A DNA stretch of 29,243 nt from a virus, in the IMG/VR virus record IMGVR_UViG_3300029263_000540, positions 1-29,243 of that record; one strand, written 5' to 3'. Position numbers and translations under genes: made by a program. The notes under the pieces are model-generated. The model saw nothing but the letters and a program-made list of their open reading frames with translations, made no database searches and had not been told where the DNA came from. Shown one piece after another: positions 484 to 25,815 of the stretch. Position 1 is the stretch's first letter, and each line of letters opens with the position of its first letter.

Positions 484-492
484 ATAGTTATA

Positions 493-4320: not shown

Positions 4321-4331
4321 AATAATATTTT

Positions 4332-7300
4332 TTAGTATCCACCACCTCCACCACCTCCTGATGTTCCACCACCCCCTGATGTTCCACCACCACTAGAATA
4401 ACTACCACCACCGCTAGAATAACTACCACCACCGCTTCCTACATTAGTACTAGTTGTGGTTGTGTTACCCCCACCTCTTGGTGTTGTACTAGTTTGGTTT
4501 GGTGTGGTTGTTGTTGGGTTATTGTTATTATTATTTAAATCGTAAGTGTTTATCCACGCTAGATTTTTTACACCAAAATCTTTTAACCCGTATATACATA
4601 AAAGGTTATCCGTACTTCCTTGTTTTGTAAAGATTGGGGAGGATGTGAATTTTCTTTTATTACTATTAAATTCTCTTGCTAGTATTTTTGTTTCTTGTGT
4701 TACTAATTCACTTCCCGATATTAAAGAAATTTTATCTATGTCATATTCCGAAGCATACGTAGATATTGGATTTGTTGTATTTCCAGTTAATATGTTGTTA
4801 TAGTATAAGGTCCCAGTCGGTGGTGATACTGGTGGTGCGTTAAAACTCATCATTCTAGCTTGGAATTGTGATGCTGGGTATGATGTATACCCTGTTGGGT
4901 TTACTGTAAAGTTGGTTGTGTATCCACTACTGTATGGTGTCCCAGACATAGAGTAACATCTATATACAAATTTGTCCCTATGGAAATCTGAATTCTCTAC
5001 TTTAACACCACTAGTCCATAGTGTGGTTGCTGGGACCATTTGTTCAATTATTTTTATCCAATAATCACCCATAGATTGAGCGTAGTCTACCATCTTAGTA
5101 TATGTGTACTGGTTATTAGCTCCACAATTCATTTTTAAGTAATCCAAATACATTTGTTGTAGTACGGGGTAACCACCAGTTTTACCATCATTAATTGTCA
5201 TTCTATTTTTAACGTCTATAAAATATTTCCAAAAATTATCCCGAAATACTTTGAAGTCTAGTTTTTTAGCGTTAATTTGGGGGTTGGTGGAGTCCCAGGT
5301 TCCACCACTAGATGGGTATGGTGGGGGTAATGTACCACCACTAAACATACAATTGTATAAACTAGATTGTCTCCAAACATCGTAAGTTAAACCTTGTCCA
5401 ACATTTAAATTTAAGTCAACATTTTTTACATTTAAAACTAATTTTTCATTACTGGTTTGGTAGTACGCACTTCTCCAATACCTATCATTAAAACTGTATT
5501 GTCTAGTTTCATTTTCTGAAGAACATCTATTTTGTTGGAACATTTCAATATACCTAATTCTACTTATAAGGTATTTTCTCCATTTTGGGTTTGTCCCGGC
5601 TTGGGTTAATTCTTCAAATTTATTTATTAGTAGTTCTTTTCTTTTTTCTAACCCACCACATGTATCGTGAAAAATGTTATTTTTAAATGTGTTGGGGCTA
5701 TTTGTACCTAAAGCAAACATTGCCATGTCTGGTTCTATATCTGGTCGGTATATGTCTTGGCCTATTTCAACCCAAGATTTTTTATCGTCTATTATCCTTT
5801 TTAAACCGAAACCAAAATACATATGTGGGAACCTCCTAAATCTATCTAGGTATGGTGACTTAGGGTCGTTAGAAAGTTCTCCCGTACCCCAAAATCCACC
5901 CCAAGTAAAATTATTAAACTTGGTTACTATACTAGGGCTACATCCACTTAAGATTGATTTTTGTTGGTTTATTATTAGTTCTGATTTGTGCTCTTCATTT
6001 CGTTCAAACCATCCAGCTCCTCTTTGAAAAAAGAAATTATTTGTTATTCTGGGCACTTTTGGGTATCCACCATCATCTATGGGATAATCTTCATAAATAA
6101 ATGGGTTTGTTGTGGTACCTGTAACATAAGTAAAAGATGAAAATGGTACACTATATTTAATTGTTTTACTTGTATATGTTCCACCAGAAATATGTGCCCA
6201 ATTATTATTAAATTTATTAAGTTTTATTTTAGCATCCGCTAAAACAACATACTCATTAAACTCAACCAAAGCTTCTGGGGCACCCAATAAACCTAACATA
6301 AACTCTATAGATTTTCTTGTCCCTTTTGATTTAAATAGGTATCCGGTATTAAGTAATATCCTCCTATATAATTCAATATCTAATTCTGCTGGTGTTTTAC
6401 TAACACTAGTCCCAGAATATTGTGGGGTACTAATACCCAAAACATTGTCTAAGAAATTATCATTATTAAGTGTACTGGGTGTTGACCACCCTAATGTTTT
6501 AGCGAAATTTTTAATTAGTTCGTTAGGTATATTATTTTTACTATCATAACTTACATTAGTCATATAAGCTATACCATCAACAAAAGTTTTAATTTGGTCA
6601 AAACTTCTACCGTATATTTGTAGTGTTTTTTCTATTTTTTGGTCTGCCGTATCGAACTCTTTAAGTACTGGTGATGTTAGAAATCTAGAAACTAGATTAG
6701 TTTTTTGTGTATCTAGTTCACTACCTAATCCCGCTAATTGTGTTAGGTATTCAGTATACCCAGTAGTAGTTATGTCTAAATTAATAGCGTCTTGTTTGGG
6801 CCAAGTAACTAATGTATTTTTATAGTAAGTACCACCAACACTAGATTCCTTTATTAATTTAAAATTAGCTGTGTACTCTGGTACCACATCTCTATTCATT
6901 AAAAATTTATCTACATAATTAAAATTTTTAAATAAGTTATCACTTTCTAGTTTGTTTGGTTTTATAAAGAATTTTTCGGTGGTGGTTGTAGCGCATAAAA
7001 CCAAGTCCATAAATGGGTTACCCTCCACAGTAAAAGTTAGAAATCCTGTTGTTGTTGTTTGTGGTTTGAAGTCTATCACCTTATATTCTATATCCCCTAT
7101 GTTACCCCCAATAGTTAAAACATAGTTTTTATATTCCGTAGTTAAATTCCTTAATTTAGATACAGTTCCGTCAGCTACCTTAATTAAAGTATCCGACCCA
7201 TAACCGAACATTTCTAAATTATTTAAGATTTGTTCTTTACTAATAGGACTGTTTAGTAATTCACCATTAGTTGTAAATTCTATTACGAATGGGTTTGATA

Positions 7301-7778
7301 TGTGGTCAACATTAACCTTGAATGTTGTTTGGTCTGTCCCTGTATTATAAATTATATTGTAAGCGGTGGTATTCCCACTCATATTTAAAGAATTTACACC
7401 ATCGATAAATAAAGCTGCTGGGAAAAAATTAACTATGTTTTGTGTTGAGACACTTAATCTCTTTTTTAATGAACCGTATAGGACTAGTTCAGATATGTTA
7501 CTTGTATCTGTGTTTATGTATACTTGGAAATTGTTTTTTGCAAAAGCTTGTGCTGTTTTTAAATCACTAAAGTCTAGTGATTCTAATGTTATTGGGTTTG
7601 AAAACCCTTCTAGTTTTTGATTGGTGGATAAACTTCTTGTATATTCTTGGCCAATAGAAAAGTTACCCATGGTCATTTGTGATGAACCATCAGTAATTTG
7701 ATTACCAACTAGGTTATCACTAAAGGTATCTCCTCCGTGTCCTGGTGCTGGTGGATATCTAAATCTATTACTAGCCAT
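4332..7778 (-). CDS. Large baseplate/tail protein with P2 gpI-like segment and Gly-rich C-terminus (1148 aa)
   Basis: This is a long structural-type protein. Residues 380-510 include a helical stretch (RSFDQIKTFVDGI) and, at 470-500, 'LYRRILLNTGYLFKSKGTRK' leading into 'SIEFMLGLLGAPEA'. The pattern of Arg-Arg, a helix, KGT and a further helix ending in LG resembles the P2 gpI-type tail proteins that connect baseplate to fibres. This match is by eye and not certain. The middle is beta-rich with Tyr/Trp/Asn. The last ~70 residues are low complexity: an Asn run, Thr-rich segments, then GGGSYSS and GGGTS repeats ending in a poly-Gly run and a final Tyr. It begins 6 bases after the 302-aa gene, and its placement after baseplate genes and before adhesin-like genes fits a baseplate-to-fibre connector. 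T4 gp7 is of similar length, but I see no specific resemblance. Confidence 0.7.
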   Translation of the reverse strand: MASNRFRYPPAPGHGGDTFSDNLVGNQITDGSSQMTMGNFSIGQEYTRSLSTNQKLEGFSNPITLESLDFSDLKTAQAFAKNNFQVYINTDTSNISELVLYGSLKKRLSVSTQNIVNFFPAALFIDGVNSLNMSGNTTAYNIIYNTGTDQTTFKVNVDHISNPFVIEFTTNGELLNSPISKEQILNNLEMFGYGSDTLIKVADGTVSKLRNLTTEYKNYVLTIGGNIGDIEYKVIDFKPQTTTTGFLTFTVEGNPFMDLVLCATTTTEKFFIKPNKLESDNLFKNFNYVDKFLMNRDVVPEYTANFKLIKESSVGGTYYKNTLVTWPKQDAINLDITTTGYTEYLTQLAGLGSELDTQKTNLVSRFLTSPVLKEFDTADQKIEKTLQIYGRSFDQIKTFVDGIAYMTNVSYDSKNNIPNELIKNFAKTLGWSTPSTLNNDNFLDNVLGISTPQYSGTSVSKTPAELDIELYRRILLNTGYLFKSKGTRKSIEFMLGLLGAPEALVEFNEYVVLADAKIKLNKFNNNWAHISGGTYTSKTIKYSVPFSSFTYVTGTTTNPFIYEDYPIDDGGYPKVPRITNNFFFQRGAGWFERNEEHKSELIINQQKSILSGCSPSIVTKFNNFTWGGFWGTGELSNDPKSPYLDRFRRFPHMYFGFGLKRIIDDKKSWVEIGQDIYRPDIEPDMAMFALGTNSPNTFKNNIFHDTCGGLEKRKELLINKFEELTQAGTNPKWRKYLISRIRYIEMFQQNRCSSENETRQYSFNDRYWRSAYYQTSNEKLVLNVKNVDLNLNVGQGLTYDVWRQSSLYNCMFSGGTLPPPYPSSGGTWDSTNPQINAKKLDFKVFRDNFWKYFIDVKNRMTINDGKTGGYPVLQQMYLDYLKMNCGANNQYTYTKMVDYAQSMGDYWIKIIEQMVPATTLWTSGVKVENSDFHRDKFVYRCYSMSGTPYSSGYTTNFTVNPTGYTSYPASQFQARMMSFNAPPVSPPTGTLYYNNILTGNTTNPISTYASEYDIDKISLISGSELVTQETKILAREFNSNKRKFTSSPIFTKQGSTDNLLCIYGLKDFGVKNLAWINTYDLNNNNNNPTTTTPNQTSTTPRGGGNTTTTSTNVGSGGGSYSSGGGSYSSGGGTSGGGGTSGGGGGGGY
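4357..4434. repeat. Short tandem repeats encoding the Gly/Ser-rich C-terminus of the 1148-aa protein
   Basis: Two perfect adjacent copies of a 21-base unit (CTAGAATAACTACCACCACCG on the plus strand) lie at 4393-4413 and 4414-4434. Beside them are imperfect copies of a shorter unit containing CCTGATGTTCCACCACC at about 4357-4392. On the coding strand these give GGGSYSS and GGGTS repeats. Units are multiples of three, so copy-number change would keep the frame. Confidence 0.85.
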
Positions 7779-7784
7779 AACTGG

Positions 7785-8693
7785 TTAAACGTTTATTTGG
7801 TTAAATGTCTTACTAAAATCTATGTTGTTACCCCTATTTGCTCTAATTTCGTATAGTTGGTCATTAAATGCGTCTCTAACTTCATATAAATTATATTGTT
7901 GGTATATGTTATCATTAAAGTCGTAAAGGGTGTAGATTCCATCCTCTATCGATTTAGATTGGTTACCGTAAAGTGCTATTGCTAATGTGTCAAAATCGTG
8001 GTCAACCATTTCAACATCTAAAACTACTGGGTTAAAAAATGTATTTGTTATAATAACTTTTTGTCCTGGCTGCCCTATGAATGGGATAGCGTTAGGGTTA
8101 TTGGATGGTGCACTTGTAGGTGTTAGTGTACAGAATATTAAGTTACTTTCTGTATTTGTGTATGTATACCTAGGTGCTATTTGGTTTGGGTTGGTTAGAT
8201 TTGCGGCTACTGGTTCACAATAAAAGTTGGATGTAACCAACCTAAAAAAGTTATGTATTTTTTCACCGTTTGCTTGTAAATATTCTATTCTATAACCAAC
8301 CAATGAATGTGGTTTAAACCTACTTCTATAGGCTGCTGGTATATTATTTAAATCAAAAACTAAACCTTTTACATTAGGTAAAGATGCTAATATACCACAA
8401 TCTATAATGTTTGTTCTTATTTCAACAGGTCTAATGTAAATCGTGTAAATCCCTTTTTGGGCAAATACGTTTGATGGTAATTGTAAATCGTATAAACCAC
8501 CTAGAATTTCAACCCCATTCACACCACCTGTATTATTTTGGTGGTAGTGTGGTGTCAGTAGTGTATTTGCTGGCAATTGTGAAACAACAAAATTAGATGT
8601 TGCATCCCTATTAGGGGTGTAGTGTACAATGATTTGTACATCATCTGGAAGTACGTCCGCTGGTCTTTTTATTCCGTATGCTCCTAATGCCAT
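7785..8693 (-). CDS. Tail/baseplate structural protein of unknown function (302 aa)
   Basis: I do not recognise a named domain. The protein begins MALGAYGIKRPADVLPDDVQ, has no signal peptide, membrane segment or coiled coil, and is rich in Asn, Pro, Tyr and Ile, as beta-rich virion proteins are. 'GIYTIYIRPVEIR' near residue 80 and 'SIEDGIYTLYDFNDNIYQQY' near residue 255 look like two similar beta-hairpin segments (both contain G-I-Y-T-[IL]-Y), which could reflect two related domains. It starts 2 bases after the 73-aa gene and ends 6 bases before the 1148-aa gene, so it is probably cotranscribed and translated with them. A structural role is inferred from context only. Confidence 0.65.
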   Translation of the reverse strand: MALGAYGIKRPADVLPDDVQIIVHYTPNRDATSNFVVSQLPANTLLTPHYHQNNTGGVNGVEILGGLYDLQLPSNVFAQKGIYTIYIRPVEIRTNIIDCGILASLPNVKGLVFDLNNIPAAYRSRFKPHSLVGYRIEYLQANGEKIHNFFRLVTSNFYCEPVAANLTNPNQIAPRYTYTNTESNLIFCTLTPTSAPSNNPNAIPFIGQPGQKVIITNTFFNPVVLDVEMVDHDFDTLAIALYGNQSKSIEDGIYTLYDFNDNIYQQYNLYEVRDAFNDQLYEIRANRGNNIDFSKTFNQINV

Positions 8694-12500: not shown

Positions 12501-15500
12501 AAATGGTATGGTAATAAGAGTACAATGACATGGGTCTGGTTGTACTAAAGGTCCTAAATCAGGTTTACACTCCCCACATAAAAAATTACATTCGTCTTGA
12601 CAGTCTCCCGGATTTGTAAATGGTCCGTGTACACAACCTGCAGGCATTGTACCCACAAAACTTACACACCCTAATGTTTCATCACAACACCATTCAGTGA
12701 CTAATGGACAACAAGGGTAATTTGTTTGTGCGTTTATACAATCCTGTATAGATATAGAACAATTAAAGTTATAAGGGTTTAAATCGCACGTACAACTAAC
12801 TACACTATCACAACAAAATCTACAAGCTTGTTGACAATCACTTTGACTTGCAAATCCTAATGCTGTACCTGTTGAGTATGGGTTGCTTGTCCCTCCTTGA
12901 CCAAAAACTAAACTATCTGACCAAGTTAAAAAAGGTGGTATTGATTGCCATCCTTGTATCACACCTTCTTGGAAACAGTTAGAGGTTGTCGCGGATTGAC
13001 CGGCGTTGGTATCACAAAACCAAAGTCCTGGGGTTGTACAGTCACACATGTTGGTGTTTTGGTAGCAGTCAAAAGCTGAGGAGTGTTCAGGAAACAAACC
13101 TAGTGGGTTATTACCCACAAACTGACAGGTACCTAATGTAGTTGCTATATCACACGCCCATTTACAATTATCCACACAATCAGACAAGTTGTTATAAGCT
13201 GCTATATTGTATAGTGGGTCACCATTGAAGACTTCTATACACCCTAAACCATTTGTACCTGGTATTCCAGGATTTAAAGAACTACACCAATCACTATCAT
13301 CACAATGAAATTTACTTCCAGTTGGTGCACAACAATCTAAATTAACCGGTGGTGGTAATAGTATTGCTTGTTGACATATCCAAAGACTTAAAAATCCGTA
13401 CCAACTGGAGGTATTTGTTGTTATACCATTTATAACATCTTGTAACATAACACAAGCGGTAAAATCATCTGATGTGTCTAATGGTGTCCCGTTTTCATCA
13501 CAATAACAACCTGATTTACAGTGGTCTTGGCAAGTACTAGCTGTATAACAATTTAATGCTGCTTCTTGACCGAGTACAAAATTACACGGTATTGGGTTTA
13601 AAACACATCCATCTATATAATCACAACTATAGGTGTCAGCTGAAGGTGCCGAACATGGGTCACAACCCCCTGTAGTAGCACCACTAGGTGTGCTCCCACA
13701 ACTTATCCACGCGTTTGGTATCCCATTAGGTGCGTCTGGTCCCTCTGGAACAAAGTAGTTACAGTCGTAAAATCCTGATGGTGGTCCTGAATATGGGTTA
13801 CTATATATAGGTAAGTCACAATAATAACAACATGTACTAGGTGTACCACCTGGGTAGGATACATAGTCGTATAAAGTATAGTCCCCACTTAGGTTAGTCC
13901 ATCCTTCTTGGTCGTTACCTTGACCACCCGTAAGTGGGTCACAAGCACAATCACAAGTTATTTCATCTGACACACATCCCGTTGGGTTATCTGCTGTACA
14001 CTGTGCCATCGTGAAATATACTGGTCCTGTTGGACTTGGTGTGTTAGCACCAATACTAGCAATAAAAGTGCAAGGCCAAAAAGGCCATGATGGGTCGTAT
14101 TGACCAGACAGTGGGTTAAATATTGGTGCAGATTCGTCACATTCTACATCACAACAACCTGTTGAGAGACAACAAGCTGAAAAAGAGTCATAGGGACCTC
14201 CAGGTGACCAAGTATAACTACTAGGTAATGCAACTGGGTTTGGCCAATTAATACAATGACCGTAACTTGAGCCATCATTCATATTTTCTAAACAATCAAA
14301 ACCACCATCTGTTGGGCAATTATCGTCACATAGTTGTGCGGTAGCATAACTTCCGTTTGGATATGGTTGGTCGACGAAATTAGGGTTGGCTCCAAAACCA
14401 CTTAACGGTACTAAAGCTGGGTCAACGTTCCAATCAGATTCCCATGCTGGTAGTGGTGTTGGACACGGAGCTAACATTTGACATGGTGTGGCTGCTCCAC
14501 TTAAACACACCCAACATTCTGTTAGGGCTGGTTGACACCAATTACAACAATCACCAGAAGTTGTGTACTGACCACAAGCATTAGTAAAACAGGGTATACA
14601 AGCTGAACTACCTGGGAACCCGGTCCCACCACTACATGGTTGGCTCCATGGGTCATAACAATCCCACCCACAAGGTCCTGATATACCACTATTATTTCCG
14701 GGTGCTGTTTGACAGGATAGTTCGTCTGGGAAACTACCACCTACAATCTCAACACATCCTTGGTCACAAAAATATTCCCAAGCTGCAAAATTACAACAAG
14801 CTGATATTCCTTGTAAAGATACACCAAGTTCACAATCAGTTAGGTCGTAATATGGGTCTAAAAATAATTGGTTGGAATTTGCTGTTAGTTGTGGTGTGGT
14901 TAAAACATAATTTGTCATTATATCGTAATAGTCTGATGGTGCAACTGTAAAACATGAAACTTCTGAACAACATGGTGTTGATGTTGGAGTTGTACAGGAC
15001 CAGGCTATAGGGTTACACCATTCTTCACAGTCTGTCATTGATGAAAATGTAACAGCGAAAGGGTATGTTGATACCGTATATGCTGAGTGAGTATAGTCTA
15101 TTTGTGTACACCCTGGCATGTCACAACCATACTGGTTACTACAATGCCATCTATCATCTACTGGACAATTCCCATCATTATATGCTGTTAAACAACCACC
15201 TGGTCCAGCATAAAAAGTAAAACTATCTTGTGTACTACCAGAAATCATTTCACAAATATATGGGCCGGGACTTGATAAATCTGGTGGACAAACCCAACTT
15301 ACACAACCAACATAATCCCACATAGTAGAATTTGTCATTGCTGTTGGTACCACACCAGTTGGTATACTGGTTATTGCTTGGTAACAATTACCGTCTGGTC
15401 CATATATAAATTGTCCTTGTGTAAATACTTGTGTACCATTCCATTCTCCCGCTATACCAACTGGCCCCATTGGTGAATAAGCGTTAAATATATTATATGG

Positions 15501-17351
15501 GTCAGCACAAGGTAAAGCACTTCCTGGTGGGCATGAAACACAATCAGGTGTACACCCTTCAAAAACATGTACATCGGTTCCTGTTGGGTTTAGCCAAACT
15601 CCTTGGTACAGTTGTGATGGCATAATACCAGCCCATGGGTCATTCAAACCACTATTACTTGTCTGTGTTATGCCTTGTTCCGCAACAACTACATAACAAC
15701 AACAATCTTGTGGTGATACATCATAAACTATATCACCTTGTATATAATCAACGAAAGGTGACCAGTTAGGGGGGTTAGCCGGTGATAATGTGGTTATCGG
15801 ATATGGTTGTAGGTTAACTCTATCAATATACTCATCTTTTGTTAAACAAAACTCACAGGTTTCCTCTGGACACTCAAAACAATCTTCACCACCAAAAGCT
15901 AATGAATTTAATCCACAACTAGTAGCAACAAAAATTGTAATTCCATTTGGGAAGTCGTAAAAATCTATAGGTGTTTGTCCGTTTGCTGAAGAAATTGTAT
16001 AACCAGTGTATACTGCATCAGCGTTAAATATTGAACCCACCATACCAGCTGTAATAGTGTTCGTTATAGGGTCAATAACATCACCACCAACAGGTAGTGA
16101 AACAAATTTTTCAAACCCATTAGGTAAAAATCCTGGAGCTGTTGTAGATGGTAAGTTACTATAGGTTGAGAAAATACCTATCGAACTATCCGTTATCCCA
16201 GTTAATTCAAAACAACCTATGGATGTACCACTGTACTGGTTTATGTTGGTTCCAGAATCAAGTGGGTAATAATTTGGTGAACCTACAGCACCATAAGTAC
16301 CATGATAAGCTGTGGAGGTAAATAATGGTGCTAAGTAAACTGAAGGTAGTGGGTTGGGCCCACTTAAATTTACTTGGTATGGGTTACCCCCTGGTGTACT
16401 AGGTGATAGTGTTCCACCCATTCCACTACCTGTAGGTGGAATTGTAGAATAAGGTTGAGCTAATATTTGGTTGTATGTTAAATTAGGTACTGTTACTGTT
16501 TGACTTACAGATGTAGGTCCCCATGGACCTTTATGTGTTATCTTAATACTATATTGTGATGGTGTAACGTACTCATGTACACTGGTAAGTGATGGATATT
16601 GTAAATCTTCACAGCAAGGAAAACCAAGACCGTTAGTTGGTACTGAGCAATCACACTCACCCCAATTTATGGTATATGGTGATTTTTGGAATTCCTTGTA
16701 TTGACCAAAATTTGTGGTATTATATATTTGCATTAACATACCATTACCTGTCGTATTAGCTGTAAAAACAAAATTAGAAAATATTTGTTGTTGGTCTATC
16801 CTTCCGTCCCAAACACTGTAGTGTCCAATATCATTATAATCTTGTGTTAGTGTTAATGGTATATTATACAATATACTATCTAGTGGGTCCAAACAATTAC
16901 ATATAGCGATACTTTCATCCCAAAAAGCGTTTACACCTTGTGATGACAATGTTTGGTTTATGTTGGTGTTCGTTACATCGTATATAGTAATTAATTCATT
17001 ATAACTATTTTGGTAGTAGGTACCTCCTGATGTTAAAATAAGACCTTTAAATAAAACGTAATTGTACCCATCTGGGTTAGTACAATTATTAGGGTTAGTA
17101 CTCAGTGGTGCGTCCCACAACACAACACATGGGTTGGATATTGAACAATCTTTTAATTCGTCTGGGAAACTGGACATCACCCCACTTTCTAAAGCATTAA
17201 CAACTTCAGACCCAGTAGAATTATACATCGTCACTCCAGAACAATTAGTACTTAGATTTATTGGGTAGAAATTTGTCCCTCCGGTACAAGGTAAAGTCCA
17301 AGTACTTGCTGATGATGCGGTTCTTCTTATGGTAAACTTTTGTATATCCAT
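9525..17351 (-). CDS. Giant cysteine-rich repeat protein of the tail cluster (2608 aa)
   Basis: By hand count it has about 195 cysteines (roughly 7.5%), and Lys/Arg are scarce. Two repeat types interleave. Type A is [WYF]-x-C-[D/x]...C...[YF]-x-[ST/N]-x3-C-x2-3-C; about ten copies are visible, e.g. starting WHCSNQYGC, YFCDQGC, YSCDYIDGC, FHCDDSDWC, WACDIATT, WFCDTNAG, WCCDETLGC, WVCDTGNP, WDCDPINYNC. Type B is a CBM5/12-like pattern, W...Y..GD.[VI]YD...CCC(Y/W).., usually closing in W-x-PC; six copies lie near residues 530-610, 630-690, 1150-1240, 1690-1790, 2350-2450 and 2470-2590. Cys-poor spacers lie near 260-470 and 2040-2200. No signal peptide or membrane helix is visible. It starts 3 bases after the 287-aa gene. 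I infer a virion surface or host-binding protein whose modules are held by disulfides or metal; function is unproven. The unbroken frame argues for strong selection. Confidence 0.75.
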   Translation of the reverse strand: MDIQKFTIRRTASSASTWTLPCTGGTNFYPINLSTNCSGVTMYNSTGSEVVNALESGVMSSFPDELKDCSISNPCVVLWDAPLSTNPNNCTNPDGYNYVLFKGLILTSGGTYYQNSYNELITIYDVTNTNINQTLSSQGVNAFWDESIAICNCLDPLDSILYNIPLTLTQDYNDIGHYSVWDGRIDQQQIFSNFVFTANTTGNGMLMQIYNTTNFGQYKEFQKSPYTINWGECDCSVPTNGLGFPCCEDLQYPSLTSVHEYVTPSQYSIKITHKGPWGPTSVSQTVTVPNLTYNQILAQPYSTIPPTGSGMGGTLSPSTPGGNPYQVNLSGPNPLPSVYLAPLFTSTAYHGTYGAVGSPNYYPLDSGTNINQYSGTSIGCFELTGITDSSIGIFSTYSNLPSTTAPGFLPNGFEKFVSLPVGGDVIDPITNTITAGMVGSIFNADAVYTGYTISSANGQTPIDFYDFPNGITIFVATSCGLNSLAFGGEDCFECPEETCEFCLTKDEYIDRVNLQPYPITTLSPANPPNWSPFVDYIQGDIVYDVSPQDCCCYVVVAEQGITQTSNSGLNDPWAGIMPSQLYQGVWLNPTGTDVHVFEGCTPDCVSCPPGSALPCADPYNIFNAYSPMGPVGIAGEWNGTQVFTQGQFIYGPDGNCYQAITSIPTGVVPTAMTNSTMWDYVGCVSWVCPPDLSSPGPYICEMISGSTQDSFTFYAGPGGCLTAYNDGNCPVDDRWHCSNQYGCDMPGCTQIDYTHSAYTVSTYPFAVTFSSMTDCEEWCNPIAWSCTTPTSTPCCSEVSCFTVAPSDYYDIMTNYVLTTPQLTANSNQLFLDPYYDLTDCELGVSLQGISACCNFAAWEYFCDQGCVEIVGGSFPDELSCQTAPGNNSGISGPCGWDCYDPWSQPCSGGTGFPGSSACIPCFTNACGQYTTSGDCCNWCQPALTECWVCLSGAATPCQMLAPCPTPLPAWESDWNVDPALVPLSGFGANPNFVDQPYPNGSYATAQLCDDNCPTDGGFDCLENMNDGSSYGHCINWPNPVALPSSYTWSPGGPYDSFSACCLSTGCCDVECDESAPIFNPLSGQYDPSWPFWPCTFIASIGANTPSPTGPVYFTMAQCTADNPTGCVSDEITCDCACDPLTGGQGNDQEGWTNLSGDYTLYDYVSYPGGTPSTCCYYCDLPIYSNPYSGPPSGFYDCNYFVPEGPDAPNGIPNAWISCGSTPSGATTGGCDPCSAPSADTYSCDYIDGCVLNPIPCNFVLGQEAALNCYTASTCQDHCKSGCYCDENGTPLDTSDDFTACVMLQDVINGITTNTSSWYGFLSLWICQQAILLPPPVNLDCCAPTGSKFHCDDSDWCSSLNPGIPGTNGLGCIEVFNGDPLYNIAAYNNLSDCVDNCKWACDIATTLGTCQFVGNNPLGLFPEHSSAFDCYQNTNMCDCTTPGLWFCDTNAGQSATTSNCFQEGVIQGWQSIPPFLTWSDSLVFGQGGTSNPYSTGTALGFASQSDCQQACRFCCDSVVSCTCDLNPYNFNCSISIQDCINAQTNYPCCPLVTEWCCDETLGCVSFVGTMPAGCVHGPFTNPGDCQDECNFLCGECKPDLGPLVQPDPCHCTLITIPFLTATPPYQACTVYNTLADCTANSYPLGGTGSNNTTCCPCQDCQTAGSVVYPIIDTSGAWSLNSTVVTIPAAGVVNAEPYGPLYNYGEGDTVIHCSISGACCCYVMVYDQYDWTIHASMDPSQWYNEYANRLANNMPNTVPGGQSNGGYPMWVPCDTTCPTTGFTQQMYECVVGSTVPSPGTCGSNNLILIPGGAMSQYTAIEWICDPVNSVPPTTLFTNYYHVGLTPYVGTVDVCADSATGNQLNISTYFNWYACTNDPVFGAAHMPFNINSKQEFIDQLVLAGFAANNGMTFTQLRALLMPTCGSGGQTWGGMYCICTATPCTCEPCTSGPSCIYTDLAVCNVAAVAIPCCVPPVTGFWVCDTGNPNTQTGVCPCIFDPLALVGYNNINACTGDTSTCCYLTGDMYRCEQSGTTTSAWTGYQTYISTQSPVSVNNYINHLTLDATNDATYLSGIFSTSQVNNIQNAGFFNNPGTALQTFLLKQRALGYTMTSGPPGLTISPYNTEFINYVGGQQVDPYGTQPGLQQSPDCFQETNLNNTSSNIYRLVETGLVFHNPDINAGWTYDFLTFMGWVQACVTPSTWSGGAQPIYSPTNGAAGNQFYSPDGYLILLHVLSSVISNDSNTPCTSPGCTSNSPTFCMEVNSTPICNAPCTCIIDNINGNHSSLIACEQDPTNCCDPYVVASWDCDPINYNCYDPGTGLGLFTSLTDCLTNCIPPSTGCDDCDVNLSSFLNIGANYLGLFDLNTTYAIDDCVYDDTDNDCCYCCVGAQQSVLTPIISNTMQSLFLNASAPPTCKDNQGYPSQIVGVNIGGGMWAPCNVNLNNLPCTPVISTECDECNQTLVNDIPTPVNFPHNPITGVYNYLPFQLGDCIYDVDPTGSGDYCCWCCGCQYGLGFNGACNEQPIGPPAVPRLASKKIATNIYNPTAKQMQPPPCWVDQISNPSDPSTGTFGTTMGYDSAWLPCGVTSQHTSCGGGGSSSISSSIAPHQN

Positions 17352-17354
17352 GTA

Positions 17355-18218
17355 TTAGTTTGTGATATATTCATAAAATTTTATTGGTCCGTTGGTTGTT
17401 TCACCTACTGCTGACAACAAAATACCAGTCATACCCGCAACGGAATTATACGGATGTACGGTGTAATTATATTTTGGTGTTGTATTACCCACTTCTATAT
17501 TTAACACTACCTGATAGTAAAAAAAATCTTCAAATTTATAACTTCCTTGTATCGGTGTTGGTTCCTGGTTTAACATTCTCATAACAGTACCTGTTTTTGC
17601 GTTAAAAAATTTACAACTCATGTAAAAGGTATTAGCTGTAAACAATTCTCTATCTTTTAACCATTGTAAATAATAATTTTCAGTCTTACCTACGGGTGCA
17701 GAAGCAGCAGAAAAAGTAGGTGTGTAAATATCGTATACTGGTATGTTGATACCTTCACTACGTTGGGACCAGTATTGTTCTGGGTCTTCAGACGCGATTA
17801 TTACAGTAGATTTTTTACCACAATTATTACTAGGCATTATACTAGAAAACATTAATTTTTGTTCCTTTCTTATTGGTGAATCGAAAAAATCGAATTTAAA
17901 AAAACTTTTTGTAAAGGACTGTGAATTTTTAGCTAACTCTTGATTTTTATAACCTAGAATATTAAAATCGTTAACGTATGTTGTATTTAGATTATCCCAG
18001 AATTCGAATTCGTAATGTATTTCAAAATTTGGTGCATAGTTGGGTGTATATCTAGTAGTTTCATAATCCTGTATATAATTTATATTATTTTGTAATTCTA
18101 TTTCTTCATGCATTTCTAGTAGTTGTTCACGACCTAGTTCATCAAATATTTGACCTAACGGTAATGTGACTTTCTTATCACTAAGAGATGCTTTTATTTG
18201 TATTCTATTCACAGACAT
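17355..18218 (-). CDS. Tail-cluster structural protein of unknown function (287 aa)
   Basis: No named family recognised. The frame extends two codons further to a TTG at 18222-18224, but the ATG at 18216-18218 (MSVNRIQIKASLSDKK) is the more likely start. It overlaps the end of the 597-aa gene by 14 bases, so translational coupling is likely. The N-terminus (K-K-V-T-L-P-L, then about 40 residues to 'DYETTRY') parallels that of the 597-aa protein (K-D-L-S-L-Q-P, then 'DYSTTYRPYGKID'). This suggests a common docking or assembly segment. 'FFKFDFFDSP' near residue 105 and a beta-rich C-terminal half are the other visible traits. No membrane segment or signal peptide. A virion structural role is inferred from the neighbours. 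Confidence 0.65.
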   Translation of the reverse strand: MSVNRIQIKASLSDKKVTLPLGQIFDELGREQLLEMHEEIELQNNINYIQDYETTRYTPNYAPNFEIHYEFEFWDNLNTTYVNDFNILGYKNQELAKNSQSFTKSFFKFDFFDSPIRKEQKLMFSSIMPSNNCGKKSTVIIASEDPEQYWSQRSEGINIPVYDIYTPTFSAASAPVGKTENYYLQWLKDRELFTANTFYMSCKFFNAKTGTVMRMLNQEPTPIQGSYKFEDFFYYQVVLNIEVGNTTPKYNYTVHPYNSVAGMTGILLSAVGETTNGPIKFYEYITN

Positions 18219-19998
18219 CGACAAATTCTGAAACTACATTTATACTACTAGAGCTATAACCAAACATAATAGGGTCTATTTTAAATTCTAAATTTAAATA
18301 TGGGTAGTGGGCATCATTTAAATAAGGATAATTAACACCATTATCACCGTCTTCAAAATAATCTAAAGGTAGGATAGGTCTCCACCTAAATGTTCCTTCT
18401 GATAAAGAATAAGTTGCGTATGGTGGTGTTGTAAATAGACTATCTTCATAACTTACAGTGGTTGATAATTTACGTATGGGTATTCGATGATGTGGTTGGT
18501 ACCTAAATATAGACTTTATAAAGCTAGTTGAGGTTCCTGGATATTCATACATAGCATGCTTATTAAATTTTAAAGAGTGACTAATTTCTGAAATAACCCT
18601 TTCTTTTAATTCAAATGGGTTATATTCTACAAACGCACCTCTATAGGTTGTTCCACTCAATGGTAATGGGTTTACCCCGTTTGGACTATTTTGAAATAAG
18701 TTACTTGGGTTGGTGTCATTATCAACAAATGGGTCTATAATACCATTTTTTCTGAAGTTCCAATCCCAACCATATCCTGTTGGTGAGTTAGCTGGTGTTT
18801 CATAGTGCCACATAAGATTTCTATTAACTTGAAAAATTGTTAGGTATATATCTGTTAGTGGTCTATTTAGGTTGTCTTGGAATTTATCCACATCTATATC
18901 TAAATTTGTATTCCATAGAAAGGATTTAAAGTCTTGTGTTATTACTGTTTTATCACCGTAACCATCTGGTGTTTTTTTAGATTTATACACCCTACCTTTT
19001 TTATTGTATATACCATCTTCAAACCCTGTCCTATCTAAACTATAGTCTGATGAATTAGTAATTAATTTATGTATGTGTGTACAGTATTGTGACCTGGTTT
19101 CACTAATATTATTTAAACTAATTATTCTTTGTAACACACAGATTGAATCTGGTGGTACTTCAGTTAAGTCAACACCTTTTGTATATATGTTAATGACGTA
19201 CTTTTCTGAGTTTGCGTATTCATTACCTAAAAAATCAACTTTAAATGTTTTTTGAGTTGTGGGTCCTAGTGGAGCATTGATTGTTATATTATATATCACA
19301 CTAGTAAGTCCTATTGGACTAATTGTTGGAGAGTTCTGTAGTTCTATGAATTCCCCAGCGTTTACCCCGTGTGGTGATGCGGTGGTTATCCTTAAAGTTT
19401 GTTTACCTTCAATAGTAATTAGTTGAATACGAGCTGGTATACCATCACCACTATTAAAACGTACACCAGACTCATCAAACATAAACTCCATAGTCTGTCC
19501 TGAATCACAATCAGAAACATAAGAAATGTACGTAACCCAATTATCTTGATAGGCGTCTATACTACTGTAGGGTAAGTCCCATGTATTTGTTGCTCCACCA
19601 TAACGATAGGGGGGCATAAAAGTAAATAAATCAGATGGTGGTAAACCTACACAGGGTGGTCCACTAAAAGGACTCACTACCGGTAGGATAGATATGGGGT
19701 CTGGACAACCAATATACGGTGGGGTAAAGTACATGTAATTTATTATATTTGGTTCATCTGTCTGACCTGTTATAATATTATTATATAAAACATCTATTTT
19801 ACCATATGGTCTATATGTTGTTGAGTAGTCTCTTTCAAAATCAAATTGGTCTCTTAAATTTAAAACTAAATTTCTATCACCTTCTATCATAGCTCGTTGT
19901 TCACTACTTAAAAAAGGTTGTAAGCTTAGGTCTTTATTCTGAGACCCAGCAAATTTAGATTCTCCTCTTACAATTCTTATATTTTTTTTATTACTCAT
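18205..19998 (-). CDS. Tail-cluster structural protein with an SPHG-type beta domain (597 aa)
   Basis: Residues about 201-275 contain 'TASPHGVNAGEFIELQNSP' followed by beta strands. This resembles the 'SPHGL-x-x-GD-x-V' segment found in many phage tail and baseplate proteins. The N-terminal 70 residues share a layout with the next gene's product (K-x-[VL]-[ST]-L..., then D-Y-x-T-T-x-Y). The C-terminal part is Tyr/Pro/Asn-rich and aromatic ('YPYLNDAHYPYLNLEFKIDP'). The start ATG overlaps the stop of the 1136-aa gene as TAATG, and the end overlaps the following gene, so these genes form a coupled translation series. The length is close to T4 gp10 (602 aa), but I see no sequence resemblance and do not assign it. 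Confidence 0.66.
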   Translation of the reverse strand: MSNKKNIRIVRGESKFAGSQNKDLSLQPFLSSEQRAMIEGDRNLVLNLRDQFDFERDYSTTYRPYGKIDVLYNNIITGQTDEPNIINYMYFTPPYIGCPDPISILPVVSPFSGPPCVGLPPSDLFTFMPPYRYGGATNTWDLPYSSIDAYQDNWVTYISYVSDCDSGQTMEFMFDESGVRFNSGDGIPARIQLITIEGKQTLRITTASPHGVNAGEFIELQNSPTISPIGLTSVIYNITINAPLGPTTQKTFKVDFLGNEYANSEKYVINIYTKGVDLTEVPPDSICVLQRIISLNNISETRSQYCTHIHKLITNSSDYSLDRTGFEDGIYNKKGRVYKSKKTPDGYGDKTVITQDFKSFLWNTNLDIDVDKFQDNLNRPLTDIYLTIFQVNRNLMWHYETPANSPTGYGWDWNFRKNGIIDPFVDNDTNPSNLFQNSPNGVNPLPLSGTTYRGAFVEYNPFELKERVISEISHSLKFNKHAMYEYPGTSTSFIKSIFRYQPHHRIPIRKLSTTVSYEDSLFTTPPYATYSLSEGTFRWRPILPLDYFEDGDNGVNYPYLNDAHYPYLNLEFKIDPIMFGYSSSSINVVSEFVDVCE

Positions 19999-22900
19999 TA
20001 TATAACTGTATCTGATAATTCTTCATCAACATATAACCTGATAAATTTATTGTAAGAGGTTTCTCCTGGTCTCAAACCAAAATAGTAGAATAGTGGTTGT
20101 GAGAATAACATTGATGGTCCTGTTAGATTTGTTATTGGTGGATATGAGTCTCCTGGTGTGCCTGGTAAACCAAAACCGTTTAGGTTACCTACCGTGTTTT
20201 GGTAGTCTCCTGAATTAATAATTGTTGAGCCGGTTGAGTTTGTCCAACTATTTGGAGCTGTTTTGTAATTACCTGTTGTGTATTGCCAATCATTATTTTC
20301 ATTACCAAAACCACTAGAACCGTTTATTCTCCAAATGTAAAAAGGGATTATTTGTGAACTACCGGACAATTCGTAAGAAACACAATCTATTAAGTCAGCA
20401 CCTGTCATAATAGTGGGTGTGCTAGCTGTAAATAAATGAGGTCTCCATTGTATATCATACCCAGCATTAACATTTATAGCGAAATCAACATAACTACCAG
20501 TTTCATTTATATTGTTAGGTTCTGGATACTCCAATAAATTCGGGTCTGTCAAAGATGTTGGTGCACCACCTGGTACAGTACAATCACATGATGTGTCCGA
20601 CATATTTGTTTCATAACCAAACACACCTAACATAGAGTTTTGCATCAATGCTTGACCCATATCACCACCTATTTCTTTTTCGGGTCTTGCAAATATACCA
20701 CCTAAAGACATATTAGGTTGTGACGCTTTAAGGTTGTAAGCGTCCGAAACTAGGTCTGTTATGTCTTGGAATGTAGTACTACCTATTTGGTCTGTGACTG
20801 AACAGTCCTCTGCAAATTTTTCATCCAAACATATTTGTTGTATACATTGGTTCCTAGAACCCATATCTACCATTGTAGTTGGGAATAGTATGTGTCTCTC
20901 CATATCACCTGTCCAGTGTGAGTTACCATAAAACCAGTTTGTGGTTTGATTACCACCCGCTACCCCATCATCATCAGCGATAAATTTACCTGTAGTTGCT
21001 GTGTTATATCTAAATGGTGTACACCTATAGTAAAAAGTATGGTCAGATGGGTGTAGGTAGACTACTTTTTTACAATACCTAGTACCTGATGTGTCATAAG
21101 TATCGTTAGCCGCATCATAAGATAATTTAGCTTTGAATTGAAATTGGTATAGAAATCCGTTTACCCAAGCATTTTCCCAAAAATAATTCATTATACCATC
21201 ACATAAAGCTGAAAATATTTTTTCTCTTCTGTACCACTCCCTAACTAGTACATCATTTGTGTTAAATTCCAAACAGGCAGCATTTAAACACATACATTTT
21301 ACATAACATCCACCTCCGGCTGCCATGTCATTACCTGCGGCTGTAGAATTACCTAATATGTCAGGTGGTGGATTACTTGTAGTTGAGTCGTACCCAAAAC
21401 TATCCGCACAGCAAACAACATCTCTTTCAATACCAAAAATATTAGTGGATGAGTCACAGTCATCATCATTCCAACTATAATTATCTTTAGCATTTTGCAT
21501 GTCTATGTTGGGGTTGGTCCTACACATACAACTTTCACATTCTGGGTATTTTTTTTGTCTTAGGGTAAATAAGACAAACCCCATCGGTATTCCAAATGTT
21601 AAACATGCAGGTTGGCACTGATTAGTCCACGATAATTGGCCACACATAGTAGGTGTGGGTGCAAAACTTAGTAGACTAGCAAGCCAACCCCAAGCATTTA
21701 TTAAAGTATAAACTAAACAAATAGCAGCAAAAATTATAAGGAATGGAATAAGTATTAAACCAAGTATAGAAGCAATAAGACCAAACACTACGGATAACAT
21801 TCTATAAATAATGTAAGTAAATAATAGGATAAACTGATTTAAAATTATTATACCCTTAAGTCTTTTTACAGCACTATTAACTGGGAAGAACATTGCTGAG
21901 GTTGAGCATTGTTGGTCTGCTTCTGGTAATATTTCTTTAATACCCAAAAATTGTCTTCTACCCCAATGCTTAACGTGGTCATGAAATTGTGAATAGGTAT
22001 AAACCCTATTAAAAGACATATCATAAAATAAATCAGTTGCTGGTGGAATAAGATTTGTTTGAGCCCATGGGTGGTAGTCACTATATTCTAAAGAAAATGT
22101 GTAAGGGTCATAGTACTTACTATTCCCTTCACCATCCATCAAAGTTTCACCAATTTCAGGCCAATCACCATTTAAATCAGTTTTAGTACCAAATTCTCTA
22201 ATTTGTGGTACTAAGTGTGAACCTCTCCTTCTTTGTCTTGCAGTACCTGAGGATTGTTCGGGTCTTACTCTAAATCTACATCTAGTCCTTGTAGCTACAC
22301 CTTTTGTTGGGTCGTTAGATTTTACTAAATTACCAAATTCATCAGTAATCATGTGGTCTAGATTCATTGGTACATGAACTAAGAAAGACCCCGTTTCATC
22401 TATTACTCTACCACCATCGTCAAAATAAAATCTTTCCATTACTGGTACTTGTCCACCTCCCATAGCAGAACCATCATAAGGATATGGTGGGAAAGCTGTT
22501 GGGTCGTCTTTAAAGAATGGTGTGTACCTAATACAGTCTATCATACCGGGTTGTGTTACTAAACTACACAATTCACCCATGTGTCTTTTTGGTCTACATC
22601 TTTTGTTTACCGAGTCTTTGTCGGTGTCAGTAGCTGTACTACCCATAAAGACAGCTGTCGGTTGTATTTTAATACCTGAATTACCTAAGTCAAAATCCAC
22701 CCTAGTTATGGACGCGTCGCAAAATTCTTCATCACCCCAAAAAGGTCTTACATCTATAGATTTTTGTTGTCCCACAATTTGTGGTAAATCGTCTAACGCT
22801 GGGTCATTTCTAAACCTGGTACCATCGAATTTTGAGTCTGGGAAACCTAGTTGTTTAAAATCTTCAGGTAACATAGAAAAACAACCTATATCACTCATAT

Positions 22901-23408
22901 CAACATCCATTACTAGAGTTTGGTCACCAACAGGTACCCCATATATCATAAAGTCACCAGACTCATTAGTTTTTACCGTAAATTTGTAGTATTTGTCATA
23001 GACATACTGTATTTCTTGTTTGTCTAAAACATCTTCTATTGTTGGGAACGTCCCAACCGCAACATGGCAGTCAAAGTTTGGTTTGGAACTTAATAGGTTA
23101 AATCTCTTACCGTCATCTGTGGTGTCAAAAGGTTGTGTGTAGGGATATAACAATCTAACCACTTCATTTTCTTGGTCTTCCGCGTCTATAGGTAGGAATA
23201 TTGATACCTTAGCATTCGGTATTCCGTAACCTCCGTTTGAAGTTACTCTACCTACCACAACACCAAAATCAGCACACATTCTTGTGTAAACGTCATTTTG
23301 TGAAAGTGATAAACTTAATATTTCTAATAAGTCAAAGTCTTGGTTTAGATTTAAACTAACTTTCTGGTCTTTACCGACTTGTGTCCTTACTCTAATAGAT
23401 TTAGCCAT
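19998..23408 (-). CDS. Large tail-cluster protein with carboxypeptidase-regulatory-like domain and central membrane-type stretch (1136 aa)
   Basis: Residues about 45-172 look like a CarboxypepD-regulatory/Ig-like domain: 'GVVVGRVTSNGGYGIPNAKV' followed by 'YKFTVKTNESGDFMIYGVPV', the usual V.G.V....G.P...V / t.t...G.F.i..vp layout. Residues 519-583 are a long, nearly charge-free hydrophobic run (IIILNQFILLFTYIIY..., then LILIPFLIIFAAICLVYTLI), enough for two or three membrane helices. A Cys-rich region at about 590-720 follows (CESCMC, VVCC, CYVKCMC), then a beta-rich C-terminal part ending at a 'FYYFGLRPGETSYNKF' segment. The gene follows the 102-base gap after the gp6-like gene and ends in a TAATG overlap with the next. 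Membrane helices in a tail-cluster protein suggest a part that enters the host envelope, or a tape-measure-like or accessory role. I cannot name the family. T4 gp7 has similar length but is not similar by eye. Confidence 0.68.
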   Translation of the reverse strand: MAKSIRVRTQVGKDQKVSLNLNQDFDLLEILSLSLSQNDVYTRMCADFGVVVGRVTSNGGYGIPNAKVSIFLPIDAEDQENEVVRLLYPYTQPFDTTDDGKRFNLLSSKPNFDCHVAVGTFPTIEDVLDKQEIQYVYDKYYKFTVKTNESGDFMIYGVPVGDQTLVMDVDMSDIGCFSMLPEDFKQLGFPDSKFDGTRFRNDPALDDLPQIVGQQKSIDVRPFWGDEEFCDASITRVDFDLGNSGIKIQPTAVFMGSTATDTDKDSVNKRCRPKRHMGELCSLVTQPGMIDCIRYTPFFKDDPTAFPPYPYDGSAMGGGQVPVMERFYFDDGGRVIDETGSFLVHVPMNLDHMITDEFGNLVKSNDPTKGVATRTRCRFRVRPEQSSGTARQRRRGSHLVPQIREFGTKTDLNGDWPEIGETLMDGEGNSKYYDPYTFSLEYSDYHPWAQTNLIPPATDLFYDMSFNRVYTYSQFHDHVKHWGRRQFLGIKEILPEADQQCSTSAMFFPVNSAVKRLKGIIILNQFILLFTYIIYRMLSVVFGLIASILGLILIPFLIIFAAICLVYTLINAWGWLASLLSFAPTPTMCGQLSWTNQCQPACLTFGIPMGFVLFTLRQKKYPECESCMCRTNPNIDMQNAKDNYSWNDDDCDSSTNIFGIERDVVCCADSFGYDSTTSNPPPDILGNSTAAGNDMAAGGGCYVKCMCLNAACLEFNTNDVLVREWYRREKIFSALCDGIMNYFWENAWVNGFLYQFQFKAKLSYDAANDTYDTSGTRYCKKVVYLHPSDHTFYYRCTPFRYNTATTGKFIADDDGVAGGNQTTNWFYGNSHWTGDMERHILFPTTMVDMGSRNQCIQQICLDEKFAEDCSVTDQIGSTTFQDITDLVSDAYNLKASQPNMSLGGIFARPEKEIGGDMGQALMQNSMLGVFGYETNMSDTSCDCTVPGGAPTSLTDPNLLEYPEPNNINETGSYVDFAINVNAGYDIQWRPHLFTASTPTIMTGADLIDCVSYELSGSSQIIPFYIWRINGSSGFGNENNDWQYTTGNYKTAPNSWTNSTGSTIINSGDYQNTVGNLNGFGLPGTPGDSYPPITNLTGPSMLFSQPLFYYFGLRPGETSYNKFIRLYVDEELSDTVI

Positions 23409-23510: not shown

Positions 23511-25352
23511 TTAGGAGAATGTAGGTTTAGTATTTCTCTTAGTTCTAACAGCGATGTCTGTTTGTGGTAACATTATTTGTAGTATTTCGTCAGGTTGAGC
23601 GAAAATAGTGTCGTCTATCAACCCTATTTGTTTTGTAGTAGCGTTGATGTATGGTTGTGTACTTATAGATTGTGAATATGGGTCACCTACTTGATTGTAA
23701 ACTCTTACATCCACAATATTAACAACACCTTCTTGATTCATTATTTGTTTTCTTAATTCACCTAAGGATAAATCTTGACCCATTTCTATTTTATCTGTTT
23801 TAAAATAATCACCAACAATTGTAATTACACTGGTCACAACTTCTGATTGATTGACTCCGTTGGCTATTATTAAATCTATTTCTAATCTTAAGTCTATTAC
23901 TTTTGCTGACCCAACCATGATATAATCGTTTATCATTCTGTGGTTAGATAAGTATGTGGATATATTATTTTTTAAGGTAGAACTTACATTAGAAGTTAAA
24001 GTACCACTGGGTGTGTAAGAAAGTACACTTAACTTAATTTTATTTTCTACTTCAGTCGCACTTGCTTTTGCTGGTGAACCAAAAGAGGATGGCATAGTTC
24101 TTAATTGTGATACATAATCATTTATTGTTACCGCTCTTTTTTGTGCGGCAAAATTAAACGAAATATAATTCCTAATCTCATCTTGTGTCATTGGGTCGGC
24201 ACCACCTATTGCTGATGTTACATTATTTATAGCTAAGCTGTTAATAACTGATTGGTTAACTTGTTGACTTGGTCCAGCAACTATAAAGTCTACTATCCCT
24301 ACATTTCTTACAGCTCCAGCACCAATATTGGAAGATTTACCACCGCCTACCCTATATTGGATAAATAAGGTTGTATTTCCTTTTAGGGTATTACCCAAGG
24401 CAATATTATTCATGAATTTAGACATGTCTAATTTTACCCCTTTGGATGCAAACTCATCTAGAAGGTCTTGTGAGGTTTGATTTCCACCACCAAAAGTTAG
24501 GAAGAAAAACCCTTCAGGGGTATATTCACTAACAAATCTTTGTGGTGCGGTAACATACCTACCAACCTTAATACCCACATTATCTGGTGGTGAAGAAGGG
24601 TCTTCTACAAAAACTTCATTTTCTGCTAAAGCGTCAACCTCATACCATTTATCAGCTAATGGTGATATAAATTCTGATGAGTTAGGTAGTGACTGATACC
24701 CAACTCCCGGTTTTTGTATTATAGATGTTACTGATATTATATTTTTTTCTGGTAAAAATAATTTAAAAAATGGTTTGTTATTACTATCTAATATTTCTTT
24801 TTTGAATATTTTGGTTGTTCCGTTTACAATAACTTCTCTCTTAGTAATTGTATAATTAACTAGGTTTCCATTGGCATCAAAGTTAGGTATTTTAGTTCTA
24901 TTAGGTACCCCCTCCATACTATATGGTGATGAAAAATCACAATCATCCACTAATTCAAATATCTGACCACCACCATTAAACTGTGCTCCAGCTCTTAAAA
25001 GACCTAAGTATTTAAAATCTTCTTTATCACCTAGAGCTGGTACCACCACCGATAAATCCCCCACAGTAACAGAAGGTCTATTACCTGGTACTTTTAGACC
25101 GTAAGTTCTAGCTAGATTATATAAAGAACTTCTTTCTTCAGCAAATTGTAGTACTGTTTCTTGAAATGTCCTATCTATTTGAAAATTTAGGTTATCTGCT
25201 ACCGCTGCGTTTAAATCTAAAAACACTGAGTAAATGGAAGCATCGTTTGCATTTTGTATTAAGTCGGGATAATATGTATTAGTTAGTCTTAGTAACTCGT
25301 TTCTTATCCCTAAAAAATCTCTTTCGGTGTACGCTATTTGTTTTTCCGCCAT
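23511..25352 (-). CDS. Baseplate wedge protein, T4 gp6 / baseplate J-like (613 aa)
   Basis: The protein has the layout of the baseplate J/gp6 family. The N-terminal region reads 'YTERDFLGIRNELLRLTNTY' followed by 'ASIYSVFLDLNAAVADNLNFQ', the helical segment with Asp/Asn-rich L..laavaD.L.... that is typical of this family. The middle has 'IGGADPMTQDEIRNYISFNFAAQKR' followed by 'AVTINDYVSQLRTMPSSFG' (the 'a.t..Dy......p.v.ka' motif of J-like proteins), and the C-terminus has 'YFKTDKIEMGQDLSLGELRKQI'. The length is near T4 gp6 (660 aa). In contractile tails gp6 dimers form the inner ring of the baseplate wedge together with gp25 and gp53, and drive sheath contraction. The start is one base after the gp25-like stop, the usual 25-6 pairing. 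This gene and its neighbour are the firmest evidence that the phage is a myovirus. Confidence 0.85.
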   Translation of the reverse strand: MAEKQIAYTERDFLGIRNELLRLTNTYYPDLIQNANDASIYSVFLDLNAAVADNLNFQIDRTFQETVLQFAEERSSLYNLARTYGLKVPGNRPSVTVGDLSVVVPALGDKEDFKYLGLLRAGAQFNGGGQIFELVDDCDFSSPYSMEGVPNRTKIPNFDANGNLVNYTITKREVIVNGTTKIFKKEILDSNNKPFFKLFLPEKNIISVTSIIQKPGVGYQSLPNSSEFISPLADKWYEVDALAENEVFVEDPSSPPDNVGIKVGRYVTAPQRFVSEYTPEGFFFLTFGGGNQTSQDLLDEFASKGVKLDMSKFMNNIALGNTLKGNTTLFIQYRVGGGKSSNIGAGAVRNVGIVDFIVAGPSQQVNQSVINSLAINNVTSAIGGADPMTQDEIRNYISFNFAAQKRAVTINDYVSQLRTMPSSFGSPAKASATEVENKIKLSVLSYTPSGTLTSNVSSTLKNNISTYLSNHRMINDYIMVGSAKVIDLRLEIDLIIANGVNQSEVVTSVITIVGDYFKTDKIEMGQDLSLGELRKQIMNQEGVVNIVDVRVYNQVGDPYSQSISTQPYINATTKQIGLIDDTIFAQPDEILQIMLPQTDIAVRTKRNTKPTFS

Positions 25353-25353
25353 A

Positions 25354-25815
25354 TTATAAATTAATTATTACAAAGTCTTTAGTTTGGAAGATGTTGTCTC
25401 CAGAACTGTAGTCAATCCTTACCCTCATAGAATACTCTTTTTCTGTGGCACCAACAAAAGTAAAACTATTGTCCTCCAAATCAGGAGTATTTATTTCATC
25501 TTTTTCTTCTTGTCTAACATCTTCAGCTGTTTTTACTTCTACTTTAGTAATTACTAAGTTAGGTATGTACATTTCTACAGCTTCTCTTATTTCGGTATCT
25601 ATAGATGTTTTAGTAGCTGAATCCATAGGTTCAAAAATATACCTCATTAAATTTGTTCCAAAGTCTGGTAAAAAATAACGTGTACCTTTTAAAGTTAATA
25701 TTAAATGAATTAAACTAGAACGTACCTCACTGTCTGGTGTTTTATTAAGTCCTAGAAAAAATCCTTCTTGACTATCCGTAAATGGGAATGTTATACCGTA
25801 TCTTTGGTTGGGCAT
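25354..25815 (-). CDS. Baseplate wedge protein, GPW/gp25 family (153 aa)
   Basis: The length and motifs match the GPW/gp25 family of contractile injection systems. Residues 28-42 (DSEVRSSLIHLILTLKG) form the first helix with the conserved E30 and R32. Residues 45-63 read 'TRYFLPDFGTNLMRYIFEP', the family hallmark (R.f.p.fG..l...ifEp). 'EIREAVEMYIPNLVITKVEV' at 75-94 is the second conserved helix and strand. gp25 sits in the wedge core next to gp6 and helps nucleate sheath assembly. An acidic insertion at about 97-115 is somewhat longer than usual. The start follows a 20-base gap with the shared TATTTAT motif; the leader is a run of A's without a Shine-Dalgarno. Confidence 0.9.
   Translation of the reverse strand: MPNQRYGITFPFTDSQEGFFLGLNKTPDSEVRSSLIHLILTLKGTRYFLPDFGTNLMRYIFEPMDSATKTSIDTEIREAVEMYIPNLVITKVEVKTAEDVRQEEKDEINTPDLEDNSFTFVGATEKEYSMRVRIDYSSGDNIFQTKDFVIINL

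Follow-up and report, generated by a model that had tools for sequence, protein, structure and literature searches.

A long hydrophobic helix in a baseplate-module protein of large contractile-tailed phages and its possible role in a buried bundle

TM1136, the name used here for the product of an open reading frame on the minus strand (19998-23408, 1136 aa) of a 29-kb virus fragment (29,243 nt, referred to below as the window), contains a long and very hydrophobic segment that is predicted to form a single α-helix between two β-rich halves of the protein. This greasy helix is more likely to join parts of proteins than to cross a membrane two or three times. The reading that we prefer, with a confidence just short of even, is that TM1136 is an accessory structural protein encoded with the baseplate genes of large phages that have contractile tails, and that its helix belongs to a protein-protein bundle in the virion. 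The family is large and lies in the core baseplate module of widespread uncultivated phages with contigs of up to 412 kb; searches of PHROGs, PDB sequence profiles and INPHARED with TM1136 gave no match, and no homologue was found among 50,697 deposited phage records.

Results

The module genes considered here, all on the minus strand, are:

25354..25815 (-), gp25-like baseplate wedge protein (PF04965, E 1.2e-12)
23511..25352 (-), gp6-like baseplate wedge protein (Baseplate_J; PF04865, E 1.9e-07)
19998..23408 (-), TM1136, the 1136-aa module protein that carries the hydrophobic helix
18205..19998 (-), g597, the next module gene, conserved, without a database family
17355..18224 (-), g289, conserved module gene, without a database family
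7785..8693 (-), g302, conserved gene preceding g1148
4332..7778 (-), g1148, candidate gp7/TssG/gpI wedge subunit, with the KGT segment YLFKSKGTRKSIEFMLGLLG

An earlier note on this DNA, made from the sequence alone, had placed the protein right after gp25 and gp6, and the Pfam matches of the two neighbours confirm this position, as does the recurrence of the gene order in relatives. The order gp25-gp6-TM1136-g597-g289, followed by g302 and g1148, is found in almost every locus long enough to show it, and a survey of 80 loci anchored on gp6 returned the same arrangement except for a group in which g597 directly follows gp6. Loss of TM1136 was at first considered for the approximately eleven loci of this group; the whole records of L263 and L264, the two long members that were searched, show the gene to be relocated there, after g1148 and away from gp6, which it adjoins in most loci. 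No TM1136 match was found within the fragments L239 and L247, which are too short for the gene to be called absent. A gp6 alignment that includes far members is too divergent to serve as a search query. A tail sheath is present in seven out of the eight relatives searched, and the family is therefore assigned to contractile-tailed phages, the wedges of which generally hold equivalents of gp25, (gp6)2 and gp7 (PMC6300606; PMC10457771).

Within TM1136 the following features can be distinguished:

22884..23276 (-), conserved β domain, weakly CarboxypepD_reg-like, aa ~45-175
21855..21866 (-), positively charged N-terminal flank KRLK, aa 515-518
21693..21854 (-), hydrophobic stretch (shuffle test, conservation), aa 519-572, predicted as one continuous α-helix (AlphaFold2)
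21711..21767 (-), most hydrophobic 19-mer, aa 548-566 (Kyte-Doolittle (KD) mean 3.15; Wimley-White sum -14.6 kcal/mol)
21522..21644 (-), conserved Cys cluster after the helix, aa 589-629 (C589, C598, C602, YPECESCMC)
20043..20090 (-), C-terminal family motif FYYFGLRPGETSYNKF, which in distant members reads FYFYFGLxxGxTAxDxF

Translation places both the 1136-residue product and a hydrophobic stretch at aa 519-583 as the earlier note had them. The Cys-rich region described beside the stretch is also borne out, TM1136 containing 32 cysteines of which C589, C598 and C602 are conserved just past the helix. The regulatory-like β domain said to flank the stretch stands only in part: Pfam gives a sub-threshold match to CarboxypepD_reg (PF13620) at aa 143-166 (E 0.0036), which lies about 350 residues N-terminal of the stretch, so that the domain does not flank it directly. 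The likeness to this carboxypeptidase regulatory-like domain is short and partial, and although weak partial matches recur in distant members (best E 1.3e-4), the curated cut-off of 32.3 bits is reached neither by TM1136 (18 bits) nor by its homologue L302 (22.6 bits).

The hydrophobic stretch is far beyond what chance would give for a protein of this composition. Among 2000 composition-preserving shuffles of TM1136 itself the best 19-residue KD mean was 1.68 +/- 0.27 (maximum 2.79) as against 3.15 in the protein, and the best 50-residue mean 0.79 +/- 0.19 (maximum 1.60) as against 2.32. Hydropathy in this analysis was scored on the Kyte-Doolittle, Eisenberg and Wimley-White scales. Hydropathy windows divide the stretch into two peaks, 527-545 and 548-566, and R536 is the sole charged residue within aa 519-571. 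By its KD mean and Wimley-White sum the segment is hydrophobic enough to span a bilayer, and at the flanking column 515 all 35 close relatives present R or K. In a 210-kb relative, of which an 80-kb region with structural genes was scanned, the TM1136 homologue is the only tail-module gene with 19-mers above KD 2, a value which is also exceeded there by a few short opposite-strand ORFs that are probably spurious.

An AlphaFold2 model of TM1136 built from 112 sequences (mean pLDDT 82.2, pTM 0.82) presents aa 519-572 as one unbroken helix of 54 residues, with block pLDDT 81-95, between β-rich halves; a previous model from 43 close relatives was of low quality (pLDDT 37.6), and addition of distant relatives was needed to obtain a reliable one. 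At 1.5 Å per residue the helix would extend to approximately 81 Å, much in excess of a single membrane span. The model contains no separate hydrophobic helices connected by turns, and alignment of close relatives reveals no loop-sized insertion within the stretch. As the fold is largely β with one long helix, and not mainly α-helical, identification of TM1136 as a tape measure protein was rejected. No signal peptide was seen on inspection by eye.

Column hydrophobicity over aa 530-572 has a pronounced α-helical periodicity, with an index of 3.92, 3.30 and 3.36 in the close, middle and far clades respectively against 1.0 in shuffled columns; these values were reached by 0, 1 and 0 of 2000 shuffles. 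The peaks fall at 100, 102 and 103 degrees, and because 43 columns cannot resolve 100 from 102.9 degrees it is chiefly the position-wise pattern that supports the heptad reading; in this pattern a/d/e are hydrophobic and b/c/f the least hydrophobic positions. One face of the helix in the middle and far clades bears K/R or D/E at 530, often K at 543 and, with hardly any exception, N553; there are some four charges per segment as opposed to a mean of 1.0 in the clade of the window. Members of this latter clade lack charges on the outer face as well, their best 19-mers have an average KD of 3.0, and small residues line one face (S/G543, A546, G550, G/A554). The alignment used shows distant relatives to lack aa 516-529, i.e. 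14 residues or two heptads. The two or three transmembrane helices proposed in the earlier note thus find no support in the single continuous helix of the model or in the heptad-like amphipathic pattern of the relatives.

Scans of IMG/VR yielded 54 loci with the window protein, as well as 273 candidate stretches that were confirmed and have an alignment. The MAG contigs L121 and L122 (33-36% identity) led to a further large clade of TM1136, on contigs up to the 412 kb noted above, for which homology covers the N-terminal ~540 residues and the C-terminal motif. The tally of conservation covered 182 distinct homologues, each complete as far as aa 640, with a 19-mer of KD >= 1.6 at the equivalent place as the criterion. 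The segment is kept in 179 of them, down to about 30% identity, with a median KD of 2.65 over all 182 and a favourable Wimley-White sum in 180, while hydropathy of the N-terminal domain never exceeds 1.47. Its sequence is variable, with an entropy of 2.0 bits compared with 0.8-1.3 bits in other conserved stretches, and its hydrophobicity is retained. The earlier note had asked whether homologues conserve the segment and took its lack as counter-evidence: it is conserved as a hydrophobic element in nearly the whole family, and three members are without it, namely L212 (730 aa), L296 (1263 aa) and L302/L303 (~810 aa). These three identify the helix as a nearly universal but removable module.

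In L121-like loci (e.g. L135, L136 and L139) the TM1136 homologues reach ~2000-3000 aa, being extended past the FYFYFGL motif by parts that seem to vary and might resemble adhesins.

Discussion

The gene order of the module points to TM1136 being a component of the virion; its oligomerisation, the burial of its helix and its docking near gp6 are likewise inferred. The two largely β-structured halves would be joined by the long hydrophobic helix (aa 519-572), which in the assembled virion would most likely pack against other copies of TM1136 or against an adjacent wedge protein to form a bundle of heptad type. Such a bundle would bury the hydrophobic faces of the helix, and packing of this kind would dock or oligomerise TM1136 beside the gp25/gp6 wedge. 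We favour a bundle or docking function because of the length of the helix, its heptad pattern, the charges found in relatives and the precedent of T4 gp7. T4 gp7 is a wedge protein for which baseplate structures have been solved. It also has a TM-like segment (aa 886-904, KD 2.07; the GenBank note reads 'C-terminus is predicted integral membrane domain'), so that hydropathy by itself is no proof of a membrane protein, although that segment is less hydrophobic than the best 19-mer of the window's clade. A further analogy is provided by the XM1 baseplate, where a (gp16)2-gp17 core bundle is accompanied by the Ig-like accessory protein gp12 and helix bundles hold the contractile wedges together (PMC10457771); there, however, the helices belong to the gp6/gp7 homologues, whereas TM1136 is a separate protein and the resemblance is one of analogy only. 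What counts against a bundle is the uncharged outer face and the high hydropathy of the window's clade, which would be unusual unless the helix were fully covered. That the helix can be deleted in nature fits an accessory element for membrane contact just as well as one for docking.

The most substantial competing explanation, to which we give an appreciable but distinctly minority probability, is that of a membrane-active helix, shielded in the virion and released by contraction or genome delivery, with a single insertion of about aa 540-566 into the host membrane, either singly or in a bundle, that docks the baseplate or lines a passage. The very high hydropathy of the segment (KD 3.15, -14.6 kcal/mol), the favourable Wimley-White sum in almost every homologue, the small-residue face in the window's clade and the conserved basic flank at 515 all speak for it, as do the retention of hydrophobicity in a helix of variable sequence and the standing of the homologue as the only strongly hydrophobic tail-module gene in the 80-kb region of the 210-kb relative. 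A precedent exists in the ejection protein gp16 of T7, a large virion protein whose putative membrane regions are kept folded away inside the particle (PMC8954989), which suggests by analogy that burial in the virion and entry into a membrane may both be true of one protein; T7 gp16 is, however, an internal core protein of a podovirus, whereas TM1136 is encoded together with contractile baseplate genes. Against membrane insertion stand the 54 continuous residues of the predicted helix, the charged or Asn residues that most of the distant relatives carry on one face, the existence of family members without the helix and the lack of a signal peptide on inspection by eye; a single span would moreover leave one large half of the protein on each side of the membrane. 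A more specific version, in which the shielded helices enter the host membrane at contraction as a bundle of several subunits to dock the tail or form part of the DNA passage, with the helix-less variants representing lineages that do without it, appears rather unlikely.

Arrangements with several membrane crossings or a purely anchoring function are less probable still. Two or three separate transmembrane helices, as a hairpin or multi-pass segment, would be allowed by the length of the stretch and by its two hydropathy peaks, but the continuity and confidence of the helix from 519 to 572 and the lack of loop-sized insertions at a possible turn in close relatives make this improbable. Hydropathy and basic flank would equally suit a helix that fastens intermediates of the baseplate to the inner membrane of the infected cell during assembly, with no part in penetration, and TM1136 would be produced in the cytoplasm; the amphipathic pattern of the relatives argues against a simple anchor, and we regard this proposal as very improbable.

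TM1136 is unlikely to be the gp7/TssG wedge subunit. The proposal that it is gp7/TssG/gpI, with its hydrophobic segment the counterpart of that in T4 gp7, draws on its position directly after gp6, as for gp7 in T4, on the similar length (1136 aa compared with 1032 aa for T4 gp7) and on the TM-like segment shared by both. However, the T4 segment is shorter and lies near the C-terminus, and there is no sequence or profile similarity between the two (hhalign of A3 against T4 gp7, probability 0.2%). The gp7-like KGT segment belongs instead to g1148, which matches, and shares this segment with, the corresponding proteins in Mel-JY01, immuto and LR756508 (97.6%, E 4.7e-12); no TM1136 was found in these three records. 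In L263 and L264 TM1136 is placed after g1148 and away from gp6. Overall, an assignment to gp7 seems remote. A Gly/Ser-rich C-terminal tail is a further feature of g1148, and its KGT segment aligns in a profile comparison with T4 gp7 at STKGIEASYKFLF, a match that is not significant (E 0.083). That g1148 is the likelier gp7, and TM1136 an accessory protein, is a lead and not a proof.

A helix engaged in a bundle would represent an unusual way of building or docking a contractile baseplate, while a membrane-active helix would be a rare instance, open to test, of a part that contacts membranes and is encoded next to the wedge genes. Homologues that naturally lack the helix are at hand for comparison.

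Several other genes of these phages merit description. The baseplate module of the window encodes an extraordinarily Cys-rich protein of 2608 aa (9525-17351, minus strand; 195 Cys, 7.5%) without a Pfam match, which is conserved in relatives, for example as a 2883-aa homologue with 7.9% Cys in the 210-kb relative. Also on the minus strand are a 190-aa ORF (8951-9523), overlapped by a longer TTG-start ORF, that includes a GS...DxD-like stretch and matches a nucleotidyltransferase family very weakly (PF07984, E 0.098), and a 1275-aa protein (493-4320) with 31 Cys and no Pfam match. In the 80 kb examined of the 210-kb relative (L220) there is no clear tape measure protein; its tail region encodes a 2019-aa protein (142-6201, minus strand) with an endolysin/peptidase-like C-terminus.
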